DNA from: Syntrophomonadaceae bacterium
Lineage (GTDB): Bacteria > Bacillota > DSM-12270 > Thermacetogeniales > Thermacetogeniaceae
Assembly (NCBI GenBank): GCA_012839645.1
Contig: DUMY01000074.1
Coordinates: 1 to 34,202, forward strand
DNA: 34,202 nt
Direction of reading: 5' to 3'
The position numbers and the translations under genes are program-made. Shown in pieces: positions 25,455-34,202 of this stretch. Within the stretch, counting starts at the first letter, position 1; every line of letters starts with the position of its first letter. Under the pieces are notes generated by a model that was given only the letters and a program-made list of their open reading frames with translations, had not been told where the DNA came from and did not search any database.

Positions 25455-25934
25455 ATGAAACCTAGTGTGAAGCAAAATCAGAGATTAAGGTGTGAACGTG
25501 GGCAGACCCTGGTGGAATTTGCGTTGATTGTTCCACTCCTATTGCTGCTGCTCTTTGGAGTTATTGAATTTGGTCGTGTTTTTCATGCTCAGTTAGTGAT
25601 TACAAATGCTGCCCGGGAAGGGGCAAGAAAGGCAGTTGTAACATCAGGCACTGATGCTGATGTCAGTAATGTTGTCAAAGATTCCATAGCAAATATGGTT
25701 GCGAGTTTGCATCCGGACCAGGTTCAAGAAAAGAATGTCAACGACATAACAAATGGTGCCCCTGAGGGCAATGCTATTTGGTACGCAATAGAATATGCAA
25801 GCGGTCGTAACGTTGGGGAACCTATAAAAGTGTATGTAAAAGGAAGAGTAGAAATAATTGTACCATTAATAAGCTCCATTATTGATGATCCGAAACCTAT
25901 GGCGACAGCGGTGATGAGGATTGAACAAAAGTGA
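25455..25934 (+). CDS. tadE: TadE-like minor pilin
   Basis: ERGQTLVEFALIVPLLLLLLFGVIEFGRVFHAQLVITNAAREGARKA. Confidence 0.9.
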   Translation: MKPSVKQNQRLRCERGQTLVEFALIVPLLLLLLFGVIEFGRVFHAQLVITNAAREGARKAVVTSGTDADVSNVVKDSIANMVASLHPDQVQEKNVNDITNGAPEGNAIWYAIEYASGRNVGEPIKVYVKGRVEIIVPLISSIIDDPKPMATAVMRIEQK

Positions 25935-25953
25935 AAAGGGAGGCCCTGGTCCA

Positions 25954-26949
25954 ATGAAAGTTAGGTGCGGCAACAGTTCGAAGACCGGGAAACTATGTAT
26001 TTTCCGGTTGCAGGATGAGCGGGGAGCAGTTCTTGTTTTCGTGGTAGCGGCATTAGTTGTTTTATTGGGATTAGTGGCCCTGGTAACAGATGTTGGCATC
26101 CTTTATTACTGCCGGTCACGCCTTTCTAATGCAGCAGATGCCGCTGCTTTGGCAGGGGTGAGAGAGTTACCTGGAGATGTTGAAAAAGCTCGTACTAAAG
26201 CAAAGGAGTATGTTGGTAAGAACGGTTTTTCAGATGTGGATCTAGACGGAGATCCCGTAGTTTCCCCGGATAATAAGTCTATAACAGTTAACCTCAAGCA
26301 TAACCAGGAATTATTCTTCGCCCGTATTCTTGGACGATCCAGCTCATATGTCGGCGCATCTGCTACTGCCAAGGTAGGTCTTTTGAAGGGTGGTAAAGGT
26401 GTTATCCCATTAGGCATAGATAATGATGGTTACCGGGAAGGTGAAGAAGTTCTTCTTAAGTGGGATTCTAAGTCCGAATTTGATGGTCAAATATATGGTG
26501 TGGATGATGGGCTGGTAAAAGGCTGGTTTGGCGCCCTTGATTTGGATAATATACAGGGTGGCGGTGCAGATGAATATAGAGAAAGGTTAATAAACGGTTA
26601 CGAGGATGTGCTTGAATGGGGGGATCCCATCATTACTGAAAACGGGAATATGATAGGCCCGACAGAAGAAGGAATTAAAGCAAGATGTGCGGGTCATGAA
26701 AAATGTACTTTTGATAACCACGAAGAGGGTTGCCCTCGGGTGGTAATAGTTCCCGTTTGTGAAGTGGTCAAAATCAAAAATAAAGTGGAAGATCTCAAGG
26801 TAATCGGTTTTGCTGCCATGTTTCTTGAATCGATTCCTGATAACAAAAACGAGGAAGTCCATGGCCGCTTTGTGAAGACAATACACCCAGGTGAGATGGA
26901 TGATACTGGGACTGATTATGGTGTTTATACTACGGCTTTAGTCCGTTAA
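25954..26949 (+). CDS. TadG-like pilus assembly protein
   Basis: DERGAVLVFVVAALVVLLGLVALVTDVGILYYCRSRLSNAADAAALAGVREL. Confidence 0.85.
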   Translation: MKVRCGNSSKTGKLCIFRLQDERGAVLVFVVAALVVLLGLVALVTDVGILYYCRSRLSNAADAAALAGVRELPGDVEKARTKAKEYVGKNGFSDVDLDGDPVVSPDNKSITVNLKHNQELFFARILGRSSSYVGASATAKVGLLKGGKGVIPLGIDNDGYREGEEVLLKWDSKSEFDGQIYGVDDGLVKGWFGALDLDNIQGGGADEYRERLINGYEDVLEWGDPIITENGNMIGPTEEGIKARCAGHEKCTFDNHEEGCPRVVIVPVCEVVKIKNKVEDLKVIGFAAMFLESIPDNKNEEVHGRFVKTIHPGEMDDTGTDYGVYTTALVR

Positions 26950-26979
26950 TTAACTGTTTAACAGGGGGGGGTAGAGGCA

Positions 26980-27657
26980 TTGAACCTTACTAACCGTACC
27001 GTTCTAATTATCGCTCTGGTTCTTGCTGCTGTGACAGGCTTTGTTGCTTTTTATTATCTTTCCCAAACTGCTGCTGCTGAGGATGCTGTTCCTGTGCTGG
27101 TGGCAGAGGTGGATGTAAGTGCAAACACGGTGATGAGTCAAGAAATGGTCAAGGTGCAGCAGATCCCTGCCAAATACGCTCACCCTCATGCACTGCGTAG
27201 CCCACAGGCGGTGAACGGGAAGATTGCCAAGGCACAGCTGTTGAAAGGTGAGCAGATTCTGAACAGCAAGATTACAGACCGAAAGCAGCCGGGGGATCGT
27301 TTTTCTTATAAGATTCCCGATAAGATGAGGGCGATGACCCTGGCTGTTGATGAAGTATCAGGTGTTGCGGGATTCCCCACTGTGGGAGATATTGTCGATA
27401 TCCTGCTGACCAAAGGAAAGGATGAAGGGGCAGTGACTACAACGGTCTTTCAGAACAAGGAAATCCTAGCAACCGGCAGTGTCAACGTGTCACAGGAGGA
27501 TGGGGAGCAGCGTATTGTTCCAACCGTTACTCTGTGTCTAACTCCGGAGGAAGCGCAGCAGATCAGTACCTATGAAAGCGCAGGAAAAATAAGATTTACG
27601 TTGCGTTCACCGGCAGATAAAGAGGTTGCTGCACTAGCACCTGCATCAGCACAGTAG
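26980..27657 (+). CDS. cpaB: Flp pilus assembly protein CpaB/RcpC (SAF domain)
   Basis: VLVAEVDVSANTVMSQEMVKVQQIP..., MRAMTLAVDEVSGVAGFPTVGDIVDILLT. Confidence 0.9.
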   Translation: MNLTNRTVLIIALVLAAVTGFVAFYYLSQTAAAEDAVPVLVAEVDVSANTVMSQEMVKVQQIPAKYAHPHALRSPQAVNGKIAKAQLLKGEQILNSKITDRKQPGDRFSYKIPDKMRAMTLAVDEVSGVAGFPTVGDIVDILLTKGKDEGAVTTTVFQNKEILATGSVNVSQEDGEQRIVPTVTLCLTPEEAQQISTYESAGKIRFTLRSPADKEVAALAPASAQ

Positions 27658-27660
27658 GGG

Positions 27661-28896
27661 GTGTTTGACTTGAGTGTTTATACAATTAAGGTGTTTTTGG
27701 TCAATTCTGACCAGGAAGCAGCAAAGTCTCTGATTGAAGTTCTTTCCAATGTGGAAGACATTGAAATCGTAGGGGATTCCAGAATGAGTGAGAGTGCCCT
27801 GGCGATGCTCCCGGAATTACTGCCTAATGTGGTAATTATCGATGATGATCTGCCTGGTGGGGCTTACTCATTAGCTGAAGAGATCACCCAGAAGTTTGTG
27901 AACATGGCTGTGATCATACTGGCCAATCCGCCGATTGATCAGGCATTTCGCGATGCACTGCAGGCCGGGGCAAGAGATGTAATCGGTAAACCCTTCAACC
28001 CCCCGGATCTGGTGGATGCTATCTATGGGGCTTATGAGTATGAGAAAAAGCGGCGGGTGCTGCTCCCTTCCAAAACCATTGAAGAAGCACGCAAGCGGAA
28101 AGCAAAAGTGATCACTGTTTTCAGTGGAAAAGGTGGGGTAGGAAAGACCACAATCGCTGTCAACCTGGCTGCCACTTTGGCCAAAAAATATGAAGCGAGA
28201 ACTGTTCTCTGGGATCTAGACCTCCACCACGGGATCGTAGCTGTTGCCACCAATATCGTCCAGAGAAGGCATATCGCCGATCTGCTCAATGAAATCCAAT
28301 ACCTTGATGCGGATCTGCTGGAAAGTTACCTGGAAAGGCACGAATCCGGGCTGATGGTTCTTCCTGCACCCTTTACCCCTGAATTTGCTGACTTTGTTTC
28401 AGCTGAACATGTGACCAAAATCCTCTCGGTTGCCCGGGAAAATTGGGATTATGTTATTATCGACTGTCCTTCTTTCTTCCATGAACCGGCTGTTGCTGCT
28501 ATGAAGCAGTCAGACCTAATTATGCTGGTGGGTTCCCTGGACATGGGGACAATCAAGAACCTGAAGGCTTGTTTGATGATCATGGATAAACTTAATTTTT
28601 CCAGAGCGCGCCTGCGGCTTGTTGTCAACCGTGTCGGTAGGGAGTTCGGTGTTTTTTTGAAAGATATCGAGGCAACTTTAAAGATGCCGGTGTTTGCCAC
28701 CATACCTGCGGATGCCAACAGTGTACTGACCGGGTTAAACCAGGGTGTTCCTCCAGTATTCAGCCACCCTAATTCTGATTTTGGGCGGGGTATACAGATG
28801 CTGGCTGAGAAAGTGTTCGACCGTGTTGAGATCGAAGAAGAACAAAAAAAGAAGAAAAAGGTGTCTGGTTTCGGTTTATTCAATTTTATGAAATAA
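27661..28896 (+). CDS. cpaE: CpaE/TadZ-type receiver-like + ParA/MinD ATPase
   Basis: N-terminal receiver-like VVIIDDDLPGG; KVITVFSGKGGVGKTTIAVNLAATLAKK. Confidence 0.92.
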   Translation: MFDLSVYTIKVFLVNSDQEAAKSLIEVLSNVEDIEIVGDSRMSESALAMLPELLPNVVIIDDDLPGGAYSLAEEITQKFVNMAVIILANPPIDQAFRDALQAGARDVIGKPFNPPDLVDAIYGAYEYEKKRRVLLPSKTIEEARKRKAKVITVFSGKGGVGKTTIAVNLAATLAKKYEARTVLWDLDLHHGIVAVATNIVQRRHIADLLNEIQYLDADLLESYLERHESGLMVLPAPFTPEFADFVSAEHVTKILSVARENWDYVIIDCPSFFHEPAVAAMKQSDLIMLVGSLDMGTIKNLKACLMIMDKLNFSRARLRLVVNRVGREFGVFLKDIEATLKMPVFATIPADANSVLTGLNQGVPPVFSHPNSDFGRGIQMLAEKVFDRVEIEEEQKKKKKVSGFGLFNFMK

Positions 28897-28909
28897 AGAG
28901 GGGGATCTT

Positions 28910-30322
28910 ATGCAGAACGATCGGAATATCAAATTAAAGGCCAGTCCCCTTTTTGAGTTGGGCAAAGAGCTGGTAAATCAGAAGACAACACCTGAAGAAA
29001 ACCCGGAACTTGCCGAAAAGCTGGCTTTTATCGAGCAGATGGAGGAGACCGCATTAAAGAGGGCCATCGATGAGATGGAGGAACAGGATATAACGATCAA
29101 CATCGACAATGTTTCTCCGAAAGAAAAGGCACAGATTAGGATGCTGGTTTCCCAGGTGGTTAATAATCTGTTCGCGGAAGAACGAAAATTCATCGGGCGT
29201 GCCGGTCGTGAGCGGGTTATCAGTGATGTCACTGATGAAATTACCGGCTACGGGCCTATTGATGCCTTTATCCATGACCCTGAAGTATCTGAAATTATGG
29301 TCAACGGCCCGAAAAAAGTGTATATTGAGAAAAACGGGCGTATATTAAAAACCGATGTTCGTTTTCGTGGTGATCATCATGTGCGCCACACCATCGAAAA
29401 AATCATCAGTCCCCTGGGCAGGCGGCTTGATGATACATCTCCGATGGTTGATGCGCGGCTTCCAGATGGATCCCGTGTCAACGCCATCATCCCTCCCCTT
29501 GTTTTGAACGGGCCCACCCTGACCATTCGCAAGTTTGCTGTTGAGCCGTATACAGTAGAGGATATGATTGCTTTCGGCACCTTTACTACAGAGATGACGA
29601 TTTTCTTGAAGGCCTGTGTGGAGAGCAGGATCAACATCATTGTTTCCGGTGGCACCAGTTCCGGCAAGACGACTACCCTCAATGTGCTTTCAGGATTTAT
29701 CCCGGAAGAGGAGAGAATCATCACTATTGAAGATGCCGCTGAACTGCAGATACGGCAGGAGCATAATGTCCGCATGGAATCAAGGCCTCCTAATATCGAA
29801 GGTAAAGGAACGATAGCGATTCGCGATCTGGTGATCAACGCTCTGCGGATGCGTCCGGACAGGATCGTTGTGGGTGAGGTGCGAGGCGGTGAAGCACTGG
29901 ACATGTTGCAGGCTATGAATACCGGGCATGATGGTTCCATTACTACCGGACACGCCAATAGCCCGCGGGATATGCTTTTTCGCCTGGAAACTATGGTGCT
30001 CATGGCAGGGATGGATCTGCCGGTCAGGGCTGTAAGGGAGCAGGTGTCCACTGCCATTAACCTTATTGTTCACCAGGAACGCTTCAAAGATGGCACACGA
30101 AAAGTAACCAATATTACTGAGGTAACAGGAATGGAAGGGGACACGGTCACCCTGCAGGATATTTTTGTTTTCAAGCAGATGGGTGTTGATGAAAGAAACC
30201 GCGTTATTGGGCGTCACTTGCCAACAGGAGTTGTGCCCAAGTTTATTACTAAAATGGAAGCCGCGGGGATCTACCTGCCTCACCAGATCTTCCGCAACAA
30301 TGGGGACGAGGGGTGGTCATAA
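28910..30322 (+). CDS. cpaF: CpaF/TadA secretion ATPase
   Basis: GYGPIDAFIHDPEVSEIMVNGPKKVYIEKNGRI; Walker A SGGTSSGKTTTLNVLS; RMRPDRIVVGEVRGGEALDMLQAMNTGHDGSITTGHANS. Confidence 0.97.
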   Translation: MQNDRNIKLKASPLFELGKELVNQKTTPEENPELAEKLAFIEQMEETALKRAIDEMEEQDITINIDNVSPKEKAQIRMLVSQVVNNLFAEERKFIGRAGRERVISDVTDEITGYGPIDAFIHDPEVSEIMVNGPKKVYIEKNGRILKTDVRFRGDHHVRHTIEKIISPLGRRLDDTSPMVDARLPDGSRVNAIIPPLVLNGPTLTIRKFAVEPYTVEDMIAFGTFTTEMTIFLKACVESRINIIVSGGTSSGKTTTLNVLSGFIPEEERIITIEDAAELQIRQEHNVRMESRPPNIEGKGTIAIRDLVINALRMRPDRIVVGEVRGGEALDMLQAMNTGHDGSITTGHANSPRDMLFRLETMVLMAGMDLPVRAVREQVSTAINLIVHQERFKDGTRKVTNITEVTGMEGDTVTLQDIFVFKQMGVDERNRVIGRHLPTGVVPKFITKMEAAGIYLPHQIFRNNGDEGWS

Positions 30323-31299
30323 TGAAAATCCTGATGGCTGTATTAGTTTTTCTGACCACTTTTTTTATCATTATGGTTTTATGTAGCTGGCTGAGGAAGG
30401 ATCAGGCGAGAGTCGCCGGGCGGCTGGAGTTGATCAGGTCAGTACAAAGGGATGAAGAAGAAGATGAACCTGTAGCTGTTGCTAGGAAACAGTCACAAGG
30501 CTTTGGTCCATTAAATCGTTACTTCCAGTGGACTGCAGGAAAGCTCGAAGGGGCGCGCTTGCTTTACAGACCGCAGGAATTCTTGGCCATTTCTGTCTTC
30601 ACATCGCTGCTGGTTGTGATGCTTGCAGTGATGGGTTTCAAAAATACTTTCATTTTTTTCGGAGTGGGTCCAGTCGGATATTTTCTCTTAATCCTGATCA
30701 GTGCTGTTGTCGGTTTTCTGTTTCCGCAGCTCTATTTATCGATCAAGGAGGGGAAGCAGCGTGAACTTCTCAGCAGCCAGGTTGGTAATATGTTGATGCT
30801 CCTGGCCAATTACCTGCGGGCGGGTCACGGTTTTACCAGGGCTATGGAGATAGTAAGCCGTGAGATACCCTCACCCTTGTCAGAGGAGATAAAAAAGTTT
30901 GCCAAAGACATCACCTTGGGGCGGACGATTGAGGTTGCTCTGGATGAATTGGAAAAGAGAACAGGGGATGAGGATTTGGGGTTAGCGATTATAGCGGTCA
31001 ATATCCAGCATGAAGTAGGAGGCAACCTCTCTGAGATTCTGGATAAAATCAACCATACTATTAGGGAAAGGGTGCGCTTGAAGGGGGAGATCAAGACATT
31101 GACAGCTCAAGGAAGGCTGACAGCGGTTATCATCTCCCTGCTCCCCATCGCCCTGGCTGTAATTATCTTCTGTATCTACCCTGATTTTCTCAAAATTTTG
31201 TTTTCAGAACCGGTTGGCCGTCTAATGCTGATCTTTGCCATAGCAGCGCAGGTTGTGGGAATTTTGCTGATCCGGAAAATAGTCCAGATTGAGGTCTAG
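30322..31299 (+). CDS. tadB: TadB-type inner-membrane platform protein
   Basis: T2SSF domain: LLANYLRAGHGFTRAMEIVSREIPSPLSEEIKKFAKDITLGRTIEVALDELEKRTGDEDLGL; ATG at 30322 overlaps cpaF stop. Confidence 0.92.
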   Translation: MKILMAVLVFLTTFFIIMVLCSWLRKDQARVAGRLELIRSVQRDEEEDEPVAVARKQSQGFGPLNRYFQWTAGKLEGARLLYRPQEFLAISVFTSLLVVMLAVMGFKNTFIFFGVGPVGYFLLILISAVVGFLFPQLYLSIKEGKQRELLSSQVGNMLMLLANYLRAGHGFTRAMEIVSREIPSPLSEEIKKFAKDITLGRTIEVALDELEKRTGDEDLGLAIIAVNIQHEVGGNLSEILDKINHTIRERVRLKGEIKTLTAQGRLTAVIISLLPIALAVIIFCIYPDFLKILFSEPVGRLMLIFAIAAQVVGILLIRKIVQIEV

Positions 31300-31307
31300 G
31301 AGGTGAG

Positions 31308-32228
31308 TTGATGATTTATCTAGCTGCATGTTCCTCTTCTCTGCTGGTTTTTGCGCTGGTCATGCTGGTCGGTCAAGCAGCCTTTAAGGATCGCGGCAAT
31401 ATCAGAGGCAGGTTGAACAGCATCAAAGAGATGCGGCTTGAAGAAGAAGATGAGCCTTTGAGCCTTCCCTTTAGAATACGTGTACTGAAACCTCTGGAAA
31501 TAAAAATGGTGTATTTCTTTGTCAATCTCCTGCCGGTGAACCAGAAGGCCTGGGTTGAAAAGAAGCTGGTACAGGCAGGCAATCCCAAGGGGATGCGGGC
31601 CGGGGTATTCATGTCCGGAGTCATGATTACTCTGCTGATCGTTACTCCTACAGTTTTCTTTATTGCTCTGATCCTTACTCTGCAGCTGTCAAAAGCGCTG
31701 GTTGCAGCCCTTGCGGGCGCGCTTCTTTCTATACTGCTTCCAGCTGCCTGGCTGCAGATAGCTGCCGGCAGCAGGATCAAAGAAATAGATCGATCATTAC
31801 CTGATGCCATTGACCTCTTGGTGGTCAGTGTGGAAGCGGGGCTTGGTTTTGATTTGGCCCTGGCAAAAATATCGGAAAGGATGACTGGTCCCTTGCCGGA
31901 AGAGTTCGCACGGGTACTTCAGGAAATGAAGCTCGGCAAACCCAGGGAGGCCGCCCTGCGCGATATGTCTGAACGAGTGGGATCTCATAATTTGAGTTCC
32001 TTTTTGGCAATGGTTATCCAGGGAACACAAATGGGGATCAGTATGGCGCAAATCCTGCGGGTTCAGTCGGATACCATGCGGCTTGTTCGCCGACAGAAAG
32101 CAGAGGAAATGGCAATGAAGGCGCCCATTAAAATGGTGTTCCCTCTGGTTTTCTGTGTTTTCCCAGCACTGTTGATCATTCTTCTAGGGCCGGCATTTTT
32201 GAGTATTATGGAATCGTTGAATTTCTAG
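31308..32228 (+). CDS. tadC: TadC-type inner-membrane platform protein
   Basis: LPDAIDLLVVSVEAGLGFDLALAKISERMTGPLPEEFARVLQEMKLGKPREAALRDMSERVG. Confidence 0.92.
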   Translation: MMIYLAACSSSLLVFALVMLVGQAAFKDRGNIRGRLNSIKEMRLEEEDEPLSLPFRIRVLKPLEIKMVYFFVNLLPVNQKAWVEKKLVQAGNPKGMRAGVFMSGVMITLLIVTPTVFFIALILTLQLSKALVAALAGALLSILLPAAWLQIAAGSRIKEIDRSLPDAIDLLVVSVEAGLGFDLALAKISERMTGPLPEEFARVLQEMKLGKPREAALRDMSERVGSHNLSSFLAMVIQGTQMGISMAQILRVQSDTMRLVRRQKAEEMAMKAPIKMVFPLVFCVFPALLIILLGPAFLSIMESLNF

Positions 32229-32240
32229 GAGCAGGATTAT

Positions 32241-33905
32241 ATGAAAAACAAATGGAGGAGCATAGTAATTTTCGTTATGGCAGTTACTTCTTGTCTTTCC
32301 GGATTGTGTGCCTATGCTCAGGAAGGTGATGACAAAAGTGACCGTCTGGCGGTGGCTTTGATTATCGACAGTTCAGGGAGCATGAAACATAATGACCCGG
32401 GAAAGGAAAGGATCAAGGCTGCCCAAAATGCAGCTGCCATGCTTGGTGAGCAGGATGAGATAACAGTTGTTGAATTTGCCGACACTGCCAGGGTACTGGT
32501 GCCTCTTAAAAAAGTTGGTCCCGAAAGTTATCGTGATGAGATTCTCGAGAGTATAGCTGCTATTGGCAACAGCGGTGATACAGACATCAAAGGCGGCCTG
32601 GAAAGGGCATACCAAGAGCTTGATAAAGCAGCAAAAGGGAGCAAAAGTTTTGCCTTGTTGATATCTGATGGTGAGCCTGATCTTCCTTCTCTGACGAAAA
32701 GCTCTAGGAGGATGAACAAGTATCTCCAGGAGATAGATACGCTGGCTGGGCTTTATAAGAACAAGGGTTATGAAATTCACTGTATTGCTTTTCATAGGGA
32801 GCAAGCCGGCCCATTACTGCAGAAGATTGCTGGGCAGACCGGAGGGGAATATTTCTTTGTAAAGGATGCAGTGTCTCTTGCTGGTTTTTTCAGTTCAATT
32901 GTAGTGGTACACAAGCATGCCCCGGCCGCAAAGCCCGAAATGGAATATCAATTCAAAGCACAAGGATATCGAGTGGGTCAGAAGTTTCCTGTCAGAGCGT
33001 GGTTGAGCTTGGGGGATGACCGATTGGTACCTGGACCCCATTTGGAAGAAGCAAGGTTTACGATAGGTATGAGCAGTGGCAGTGAACCTGTAAAGACGGT
33101 GGAGATGCGGGATGATGGTGATACGTCTTCCGGAGATGAAGTGGCAGGGGATGGAATTTACTCAGCTGTAGTGGAGTGCCGGAAGGAAGGCGAAATGAAC
33201 CTCTCTTTGACCTTTGAGGGAAGGTACCGCGGGGAGGAAATCAAACAGGTGACTGCACTTGGCGGTATCATGATTAAATCGGCAGTATCTACGAAAAACT
33301 TGGTTGGTATAGGGGCCGCTATCTTCAGAAAGGAGTCCCTGCTTCCTGCCGTTTGTATTATTTCTCTACTGATTATCGCATCATTGATTATCAAATCAAC
33401 AACCAGGCGCAAATCAAGGTATATCCAAGGAAAACTCGTCTATTGGGCAGTAGACCAGGGTGCTGTACCGGAGGTAAAGGAGTTAAGACCCGATAAACTC
33501 AAAAAATATGAGGTAGTGGTGGCAACCGAGGATGCTGAGGGTACAGATATTGTTTTGCCTGTTCTATCAAAAGATTTTGCCTTCAAGATCAAGAAGTTCA
33601 GTGAAGACGCGAAGGATGCAGGTGTGGAGGACTCAAAAGACTTCGATTTGGCCGGCAAAAACGCCTATATTGCAGTAAGTTTACCTGGCACTTTCATCCA
33701 ATTTGAAGAAGGGCCTAAACTCTTTGAGACAATCCCGAGAAGCAGGAGGCAGATCTTTCATGGAGACCGCTTCCTGGTACGGGGCTATGTCTTTGAATTT
33801 CACTGCCCTGAAGCCACCGAAAAGCTAGCAGCTACCAAAGATACATCGCGTCTTTTGAAAAAGATTTCTAAGAAAAAAGGTTTTACAGCTTCACCGGAGG
33901 GATAA
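32241..33905 (+). CDS. Secreted/membrane VWA-domain protein at the end of the Tad operon
   Basis: Signal peptide; MIDAS DSSGSM, SGDTDIKGG, ISDGEPD; DDGDTSSGDEVAGDGIYSA; TM then basic anchor and about 170-aa C-terminal domain; 12 bp after tadC. Confidence 0.9.
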   Translation: MKNKWRSIVIFVMAVTSCLSGLCAYAQEGDDKSDRLAVALIIDSSGSMKHNDPGKERIKAAQNAAAMLGEQDEITVVEFADTARVLVPLKKVGPESYRDEILESIAAIGNSGDTDIKGGLERAYQELDKAAKGSKSFALLISDGEPDLPSLTKSSRRMNKYLQEIDTLAGLYKNKGYEIHCIAFHREQAGPLLQKIAGQTGGEYFFVKDAVSLAGFFSSIVVVHKHAPAAKPEMEYQFKAQGYRVGQKFPVRAWLSLGDDRLVPGPHLEEARFTIGMSSGSEPVKTVEMRDDGDTSSGDEVAGDGIYSAVVECRKEGEMNLSLTFEGRYRGEEIKQVTALGGIMIKSAVSTKNLVGIGAAIFRKESLLPAVCIISLLIIASLIIKSTTRRKSRYIQGKLVYWAVDQGAVPEVKELRPDKLKKYEVVVATEDAEGTDIVLPVLSKDFAFKIKKFSEDAKDAGVEDSKDFDLAGKNAYIAVSLPGTFIQFEEGPKLFETIPRSRRQIFHGDRFLVRGYVFEFHCPEATEKLAATKDTSRLLKKISKKKGFTASPEG

Positions 33906-33916
33906 AAAACTGCTTG

Positions 33917-33945
33917 TTGACATGGTGCGAGATCTTTCATATAAT
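33917..33945 (+). promoter_or_regulatory. Perfect consensus sigma-A promoter
   Basis: TTGACA (33917-33922) - 17 nt - TATAAT (33940-33945). Confidence 0.9.
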
Positions 33946-33957
33946 AGAATTCGGCAA

Positions 33958-34124
33958 ATGCGAGGAACGGGATTAGTAAACCGCTCCGGCAGGCCTCCAG
34001 AGAACCGGTTGAACGGGGTGCGAGCCGGTGGCCGAGCCGGGGTTGAACTCGCCCGGGAGCAGTACCGGTGAAGTGAATTAGCCGGTAACGCAGGCAGCGT
34101 TAAATGCCTTAATAAGTGGGTAGA
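33958..34124 (+). promoter_or_regulatory. T-box-like leader RNA lacking a recognisable T-box antiterminator sequence
   Basis: AGTA (33975-33978), CAGAGA..CCGG..GGTGCGAGCCGG distal motif, GGTTGAACTCGCCCGGGAGCAGTACCGG specifier/K-turn region, AGGCA..TGCCTTAATAAGTGGG; then no TGGNACCGCG. Confidence 0.72.
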
Positions 34125-34129
34125 TAGAT

Positions 34130-34202
34130 GGGGCTGTGGCGCAGTTCGGGAGCGCGCTTCCTTGGCATGGAAGAGGCCGCGGGTTCGATTCCCGCCAGCT
34201 CC
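34130..34202 (+). tRNA. tRNA-Ala (anticodon GGC), cut by window end at the discriminator
   Basis: GGGGCTG..CAGCTCC acceptor (one G-T), D arm GCGC/GCGC, anticodon arm CTTCC-TTGGCAT-GGAAG, T arm GCGGG-TTCGATT-CCCGC. Confidence 0.95.

Follow-up and report, generated by a model that had tools for sequence, protein, structure and literature searches.

A tRNA-Ala(GGC) gene at the tip of stem III in a leuS T-box leader: a candidate regulatory RNA with two outputs

Transfer RNAs and messenger RNAs can share one transcript, as in the E. coli thrU-tyrU-glyT-thrT-tufB operon, which gives rise to a tRNA-mRNA cotranscript. T-box leaders, in turn, can be subject to cleavage, and the leader of B. subtilis thrS is processed by RNase. 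In PMC7583486 the discriminator of T-box RNAs is described as a 5'-RRRxG-stem III-AA motif. We describe here a leuS T-box leader in which the tip of stem III is formed by a complete tRNA-Ala(GGC) gene. The literature open to search, which includes the main T-box surveys and reviews and lies outside the subscription papers, makes no mention of a T-box with a tRNA gene in it, and such an arrangement is probably previously undescribed.

The locus lies at the end of a stretch of 34,202 nucleotides from a Syntrophomonadaceae bacterium, hereafter the window, which is the entire contig C48 of a genome assembly of 2.19 Mb in 291 contigs. Positions 25921-33905 are occupied by a secretion- or pilus-type gene cluster (T2SSE ATPase, T2SSF protein, VWA-domain protein) that ends, with the stop codon of the VWA gene, 12 bases 5' of the leuS promoter. 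This sigma-70-type promoter, TTGACA-N17-TATAAT, is found at 33917-33945 on the plus strand, as are all features of the window named below, and matches the consensus at 12 of 12 positions (shuffles, mean 0.2). An earlier note, made from the sequence alone, had named a perfect promoter at this site and a T-box-like leader directly 5' of a tRNA-Ala gene, and both readings hold, the latter also against the Rfam T-box model. The 5' part of the leader, comprising stem I, specifier loop, stem II, the IIA/B element and the 5' flank of stem III, extends from 33954 to 34126 and matches RF00230 with 74 bits (E 2.5e-15), and tRNA-Ala(GGC) begins at 34130. The score lies below the gathering score of 93 bits because the leader is incomplete on C48 and its antiterminator falls past the contig end; relatives with a whole leader score from 81 to, at the highest, 125 bits and mostly exceed the gathering score. 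The RF00230 alignment places the specifier codon CUC (leucine) at 34048-34050, in the context GAA-CUC-GCC (34045-34053), stem II with its S-turn at 34063-34087, which is also seen in the MFE fold of the leader of the related genome G003, and stem IIA/B, the pseudoknot region with CGUUA, at 34088-34104. A purine string of the RRRxG type (AAGUG, 34114-34118), recognized in the sequence by the motif of PMC7583486, forms the 5' side of the discriminator and is followed by the 5' strand of stem III, GGUAGAUA, at 34119-34126 (sequence, covariation test and MFE fold). At the stem III tip, the tRNA-Ala(GGC) with its G3-U70 pair occupies 34130-34202, and its identity is supported by ARAGORN and by RF00005 (59.1 bits). 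ARAGORN lets the tRNA run to 34203, one base outside the window.

The end of C48 hence splits the leuS leader and deprives the tRNA of its last base. A second contig of this genome, C119, overlaps the window end by 29 bases (34174-34202, plus strand, equivalent to L016:102-130, L016 being the locus on C119) and, past this overlap, reads ...CUCC-A-CCA-AUAUAUUUACCAAAUUGGGUGGUACCACGG..., followed by a terminator (hairpin plus T run) and then by leuS. By sequence, L016 provides the last tRNA base A73 with the encoded CCA (131-134), a short linker holding the 3' strand of stem III, UAUUUACC (138-145), which pairs with the 5' strand, the adjoining AA (146-147), the T-box antiterminator GGGUGGUACCACGG (151-164), whose UGGN bulge matches the discriminator, an intrinsic terminator of the transcriptional class (170-205) and leuS itself (334-2844, 836 aa, TIGR00396 1154 bits). 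The earlier note had let the T-box end before the tRNA, which has to be given up, as antiterminator and terminator come after the tRNA and leuS is the target; among its three guesses, that of a tRNA inserted in a T-box is the one that the findings support. The start of C119 (L016:1-101) carries an inverted copy of the terminator/antiterminator present at 146-205, with the antiterminator part at C119:66-101. This copy is probably an assembly chimera and may, as the likely cause, account for the contig break at the window end. Together with the fact that the window stops inside the tRNA, it could raise the suspicion that assembly wrongly joined the end of a T-box to a tRNA gene. Such a misjoin is hardly conceivable and was ruled out, since the relative G003 (95% identical) has the full arrangement of T-box, tRNA-Ala, antiterminator, terminator and leuS on a single contig (L018) and many independent assemblies, among them the single-contig genomes G034, G040, G117 and G284 and named isolates, show it without interruption.

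The elements are ordered 5'-RRRxG-GGUAGAUA-[tRNA-Ala-CCA]-UAUUUACC-AA-antiterminator, and the discriminator motif RRRxG-stem III-AA is present around the tRNA, with AAGUG before and AA after it. Because complementary strands flank the tRNA inside this motif in the aligned leaders, the tRNA-Ala is, as judged from sequence, the tip of stem III in the leuS T-box. In the MFE fold of the G003 leader the tRNA cloverleaf sits atop the stem III helix, and the terminator hairpin is formed as well. Where related leuS T-boxes lack a tRNA, stem III is a short hairpin at this site, for example GGUAA-UUUA-UUACC-AA (L223) and GGCA-UUC-UGCC-AA (L220). The locus combines the features of a T-box, namely a covariance-model match, a specifier fitting the target gene, a UGGN antiterminator, RRRxG-stem III-AA and an alternative terminator, with those of a tRNA-Ala(GGC) gene, namely cloverleaf, GGC anticodon, G3-U70, A73 and encoded CCA. 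The helix closing the tRNA was evaluated by the pairing energy between the 30 bases 5' of the tRNA and the linker 3' of it, compared to pairs in which the flanks had been swapped between species. Native flanks reach a mean of -10.15 kcal/mol versus -6.90 (sd 0.20) for swapped ones, and 0 of 5000 permutations reach the native value. With 30 representatives below 70% LeuRS identity z is -8 (0/20000), and 7 of these 30 pair no better than the median swapped pair. By these values the closing helix covaries. Conservation is also seen at single positions of the 121 listed loci: the two A residues that follow stem III are conserved in 117 and 120 of them, the UGGU bulge in 118, the discriminator A73 in all 121 and a U at tRNA position -1 in 100, and a terminator-like hairpin lies downstream in 105.

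The specifier reads GAACUC by exact motif in 111 of the 120 readable leaders among the loci listed; by eye, the remaining ones have CUC in a slightly altered context, the exception being L036, which is without stem I. The cognate of this specifier, tRNA-Leu(GAG), is present in the window genome (L211). The leuS T-box is predicted to read tRNA-Leu(GAG), a CUC specifier being what fits a leuS target. A tRNA dose feedback switch, in which the T-box would sense the tRNA-Ala encoded right behind it, had been another of the early guesses. Adjacency would suit it, as would the UGGU bulge common to tRNA-Ala and tRNA-Leu T-boxes and the invariant A73, but the specifier is the leucine codon CUC and no alanine codon in every readable case, and the target is leuS or ilvE-leuS. 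On account of the specifier we reject alanine feedback as very improbable.

For the occurrence of the arrangement we used a pattern that joins the tRNA T-arm and CCA to the T-box core within 35 bases, with the reversed pattern as control. In a sample of 398 genomes of the phylum it had matches in 67, compared to a single match for the reversed control, which rules out chance adjacency. When GTDB contigs were scanned, at least 119 stretches matched, and after duplicate removal there are at least 124 loci with a tRNA, at least 121 of them with tRNA-Ala(GGC) and 3 of them apparently chance matches. The latter, two with tRNA-Leu and one with tRNA-Pro, come from Proteobacteria and Acidobacteria MAGs, have no leuS downstream and were set aside. 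Viral contigs scanned with the pattern gave no match. The loci listed belong to Bacillota, Chloroflexota, Thermomicrobiota, Armatimonadota and other phyla, and the carriers include Syntrophomonas, Thermosyntropha, Desulfallas, Desulfofundulus, Pelotomaculum, Symbiobacterium, Ktedonobacter, Dictyobacter, Sphaerobacter and Armatimonadota MAGs. The earlier note would have abandoned its reading if a normal antiterminator and a synthetase gene followed a tRNA peculiar to this assembly; antiterminator and synthetase gene do follow, but the tRNA occurs in more than a hundred genomes and not in one assembly.

At all of the 121 listed loci with enough downstream sequence leuS follows directly or after one gene, except at L024 (G007), where the examined sequence ends after group II intron sequence that comes behind the leader. 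This locus (103-1342 on the minus strand and 1992-2079) has matches to group II intron domains, in two sets arranged in tandem, just 3' of the leuS leader and a c-di-GMP-I riboswitch on the other side, and leuS is absent from the 1.5 kb examined. The single gene that can separate T-box and leuS is ilvE or a gene of the acyl-CoA ligase family. In Armatimonadota it is ilvE, identified as such in L102 and L114, whose role in branched-chain amino acid metabolism agrees with a leucine-specific T-box; in L117, from Desulfallas, leuS is preceded by a member of the acyl-CoA ligase family. L136 and L150, as well as L081, L088, L107 and L132, have an open reading frame before leuS or before the end of the contig piece. 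Five Ktedonobacteria loci (L078, L110, L128, L129, L141) have a tRNA-Ala(CGC) gene shortly 5' of the T-box, so that two alanine tRNA genes bracket the sensor. In a LeuRS tree with 131 rows carriers are scattered among non-carriers, with at least 13 state changes, which suggests that the tRNA in the T-box is of old date and was repeatedly lost and/or transferred. L162 (Desulfovibrio MAG) and L099 (Proteobacteria MAG) are labelled Proteobacteria/Desulfobacterota and have their LeuRS among Bacillota or Chloroflexota rows; they probably reflect mis-binned contigs or transfer.

By pattern, 60 of the 64 genomes that gave a match have no tRNA-Ala(GGC) besides this one, and no second tRNA-Ala(GGC) is among the tRNAs found in the window genome. 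Being usually the only such gene, the embedded locus has indirect support as a source of mature, aminoacylated tRNA-Ala(GGC). A few lineages have lost T-box parts and yet retain the tRNA-Ala before leuS: L033 has lost the antiterminator core, L036 stem I, and in L231 only promoter, tRNA-Ala, a terminator remnant and leuS are left. Because of these cases, the coupling of T-box and tRNA appears not to be indispensable everywhere. L038, a further decayed state, has a tRNA-Ala without a T-box. In L097 and L111 (Coprothermobacterota MAGs) tRNA-Ala and a T-box core lie before leuS, stem I was not found by a simple pattern, and these are possibly reduced T-boxes. The constant pairing of tRNA-Ala(GGC) with leuS may reflect a probable single origin and lock-in by single copy. 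The single copy in most genomes and the tRNAs that outlived a decayed T-box would also be expected from a frozen accident, in which a tRNA that had come to lie in the leader could no longer be lost once it was the only copy, and is tolerated by the T-box without any structural role. We regard this as possible, though somewhat unlikely, as the tRNA is located exactly at the tip of stem III, its closing helix covaries and the RRRxG and AA purines are kept, all of which points to a tRNA that is structurally built in. As to why the tRNA persists, the frozen accident may nevertheless be right.

We consider it likely that the locus is a two-output leader, that is, a leucine-specific leuS T-box riboswitch with stem III tipped by a complete tRNA-Ala(GGC) gene. 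Transcription would start at the TTGACA/TATAAT promoter, and stem I would read tRNA-Leu(GAG) via the CUC specifier. The polymerase would next make stem III, a short helix of about 5-10 bp whose loop is replaced by the tRNA-Ala cloverleaf, and go on to the antiterminator/terminator. With uncharged tRNA-Leu the antiterminator would be stabilised and transcription would proceed into leuS; with charged tRNA-Leu it would terminate. Since the tRNA lies upstream of the terminator, short and long transcripts alike would contain tRNA-Ala, and the supply of this usually single-copy tRNA would therefore be independent of the leucine decision. RNase P, for which a U is present at -1, and 3' processing would free the tRNA and in doing so detach the sensor half from the leuS mRNA. 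The cuts that mature the tRNA must then fall between sensor and antiterminator, presumably after the decision; an RNase P cut that is faster than the decision could in principle disrupt regulation. This position of the cleavage sites, between the tRNA-Leu-reading half and the antiterminator, the conserved U(-1) and the persistence of the arrangement over great distances might indicate that tRNA-Ala maturation is itself regulatory, so that leuS output would report processing capacity, or that the cuts set the life time of leader and leuS mRNA. However, lock-in of a single-copy tRNA gene also explains the persistence, and termination decisions are normally made within seconds, and we judge a processing-coupled switch to be quite unlikely. 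Rather doubtful as well is the idea that the embedded tRNA takes an active part in the switch, serving as scaffold of the discriminator's stem III, with RNase P excision resetting or limiting leuS expression. If true, tRNA maturation would be a regulatory step of the T-box.

In the two-output leader, a T-box, an RNA that reads tRNA, has a tRNA gene built into its own structure, and this arrangement is kept across phyla and is usually the sole source of tRNA-Ala(GGC). Stem III, which is required to dock against the antiterminator, can apparently bear a folded RNA of 76 nt at its tip, and the short transcripts left by termination, which go to waste in other T-boxes, would gain a use. This raises the question by what means the regulatory decision is protected from RNase P processing. 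The several T-box decays in which the tRNA was retained offer a natural experiment on the lock-in of tRNA genes and regulators.

With the T-boxes of RF00230, transcriptional leuS class, the leader described here shares stem I, specifier loop, S-turn stem II, IIA/B, RRRxG-stem III-AA, the UGGU bulge antiterminator, the terminator and an aminoacyl-tRNA synthetase as target. It differs in that stem III, in place of a small hairpin, is a helix topped by an entire tRNA gene, and in that a second product is predicted. As in tRNA-mRNA cotranscripts of the thrU-tyrU-glyT-thrT-tufB kind, a tRNA gene lies 5' of a protein gene, one transcript is expected and excision would be needed; in contrast to them, the tRNA is placed inside a regulatory RNA domain and 5' of a conditional terminator, which would separate its supply from that of the mRNA. 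Similar to RNase-cleaved T-box leaders such as that of B. subtilis thrS, a cut 5' of the terminator would part the sensor from the mRNA, whereas here this cut is predicted to be the maturation of a tRNA by RNase P.
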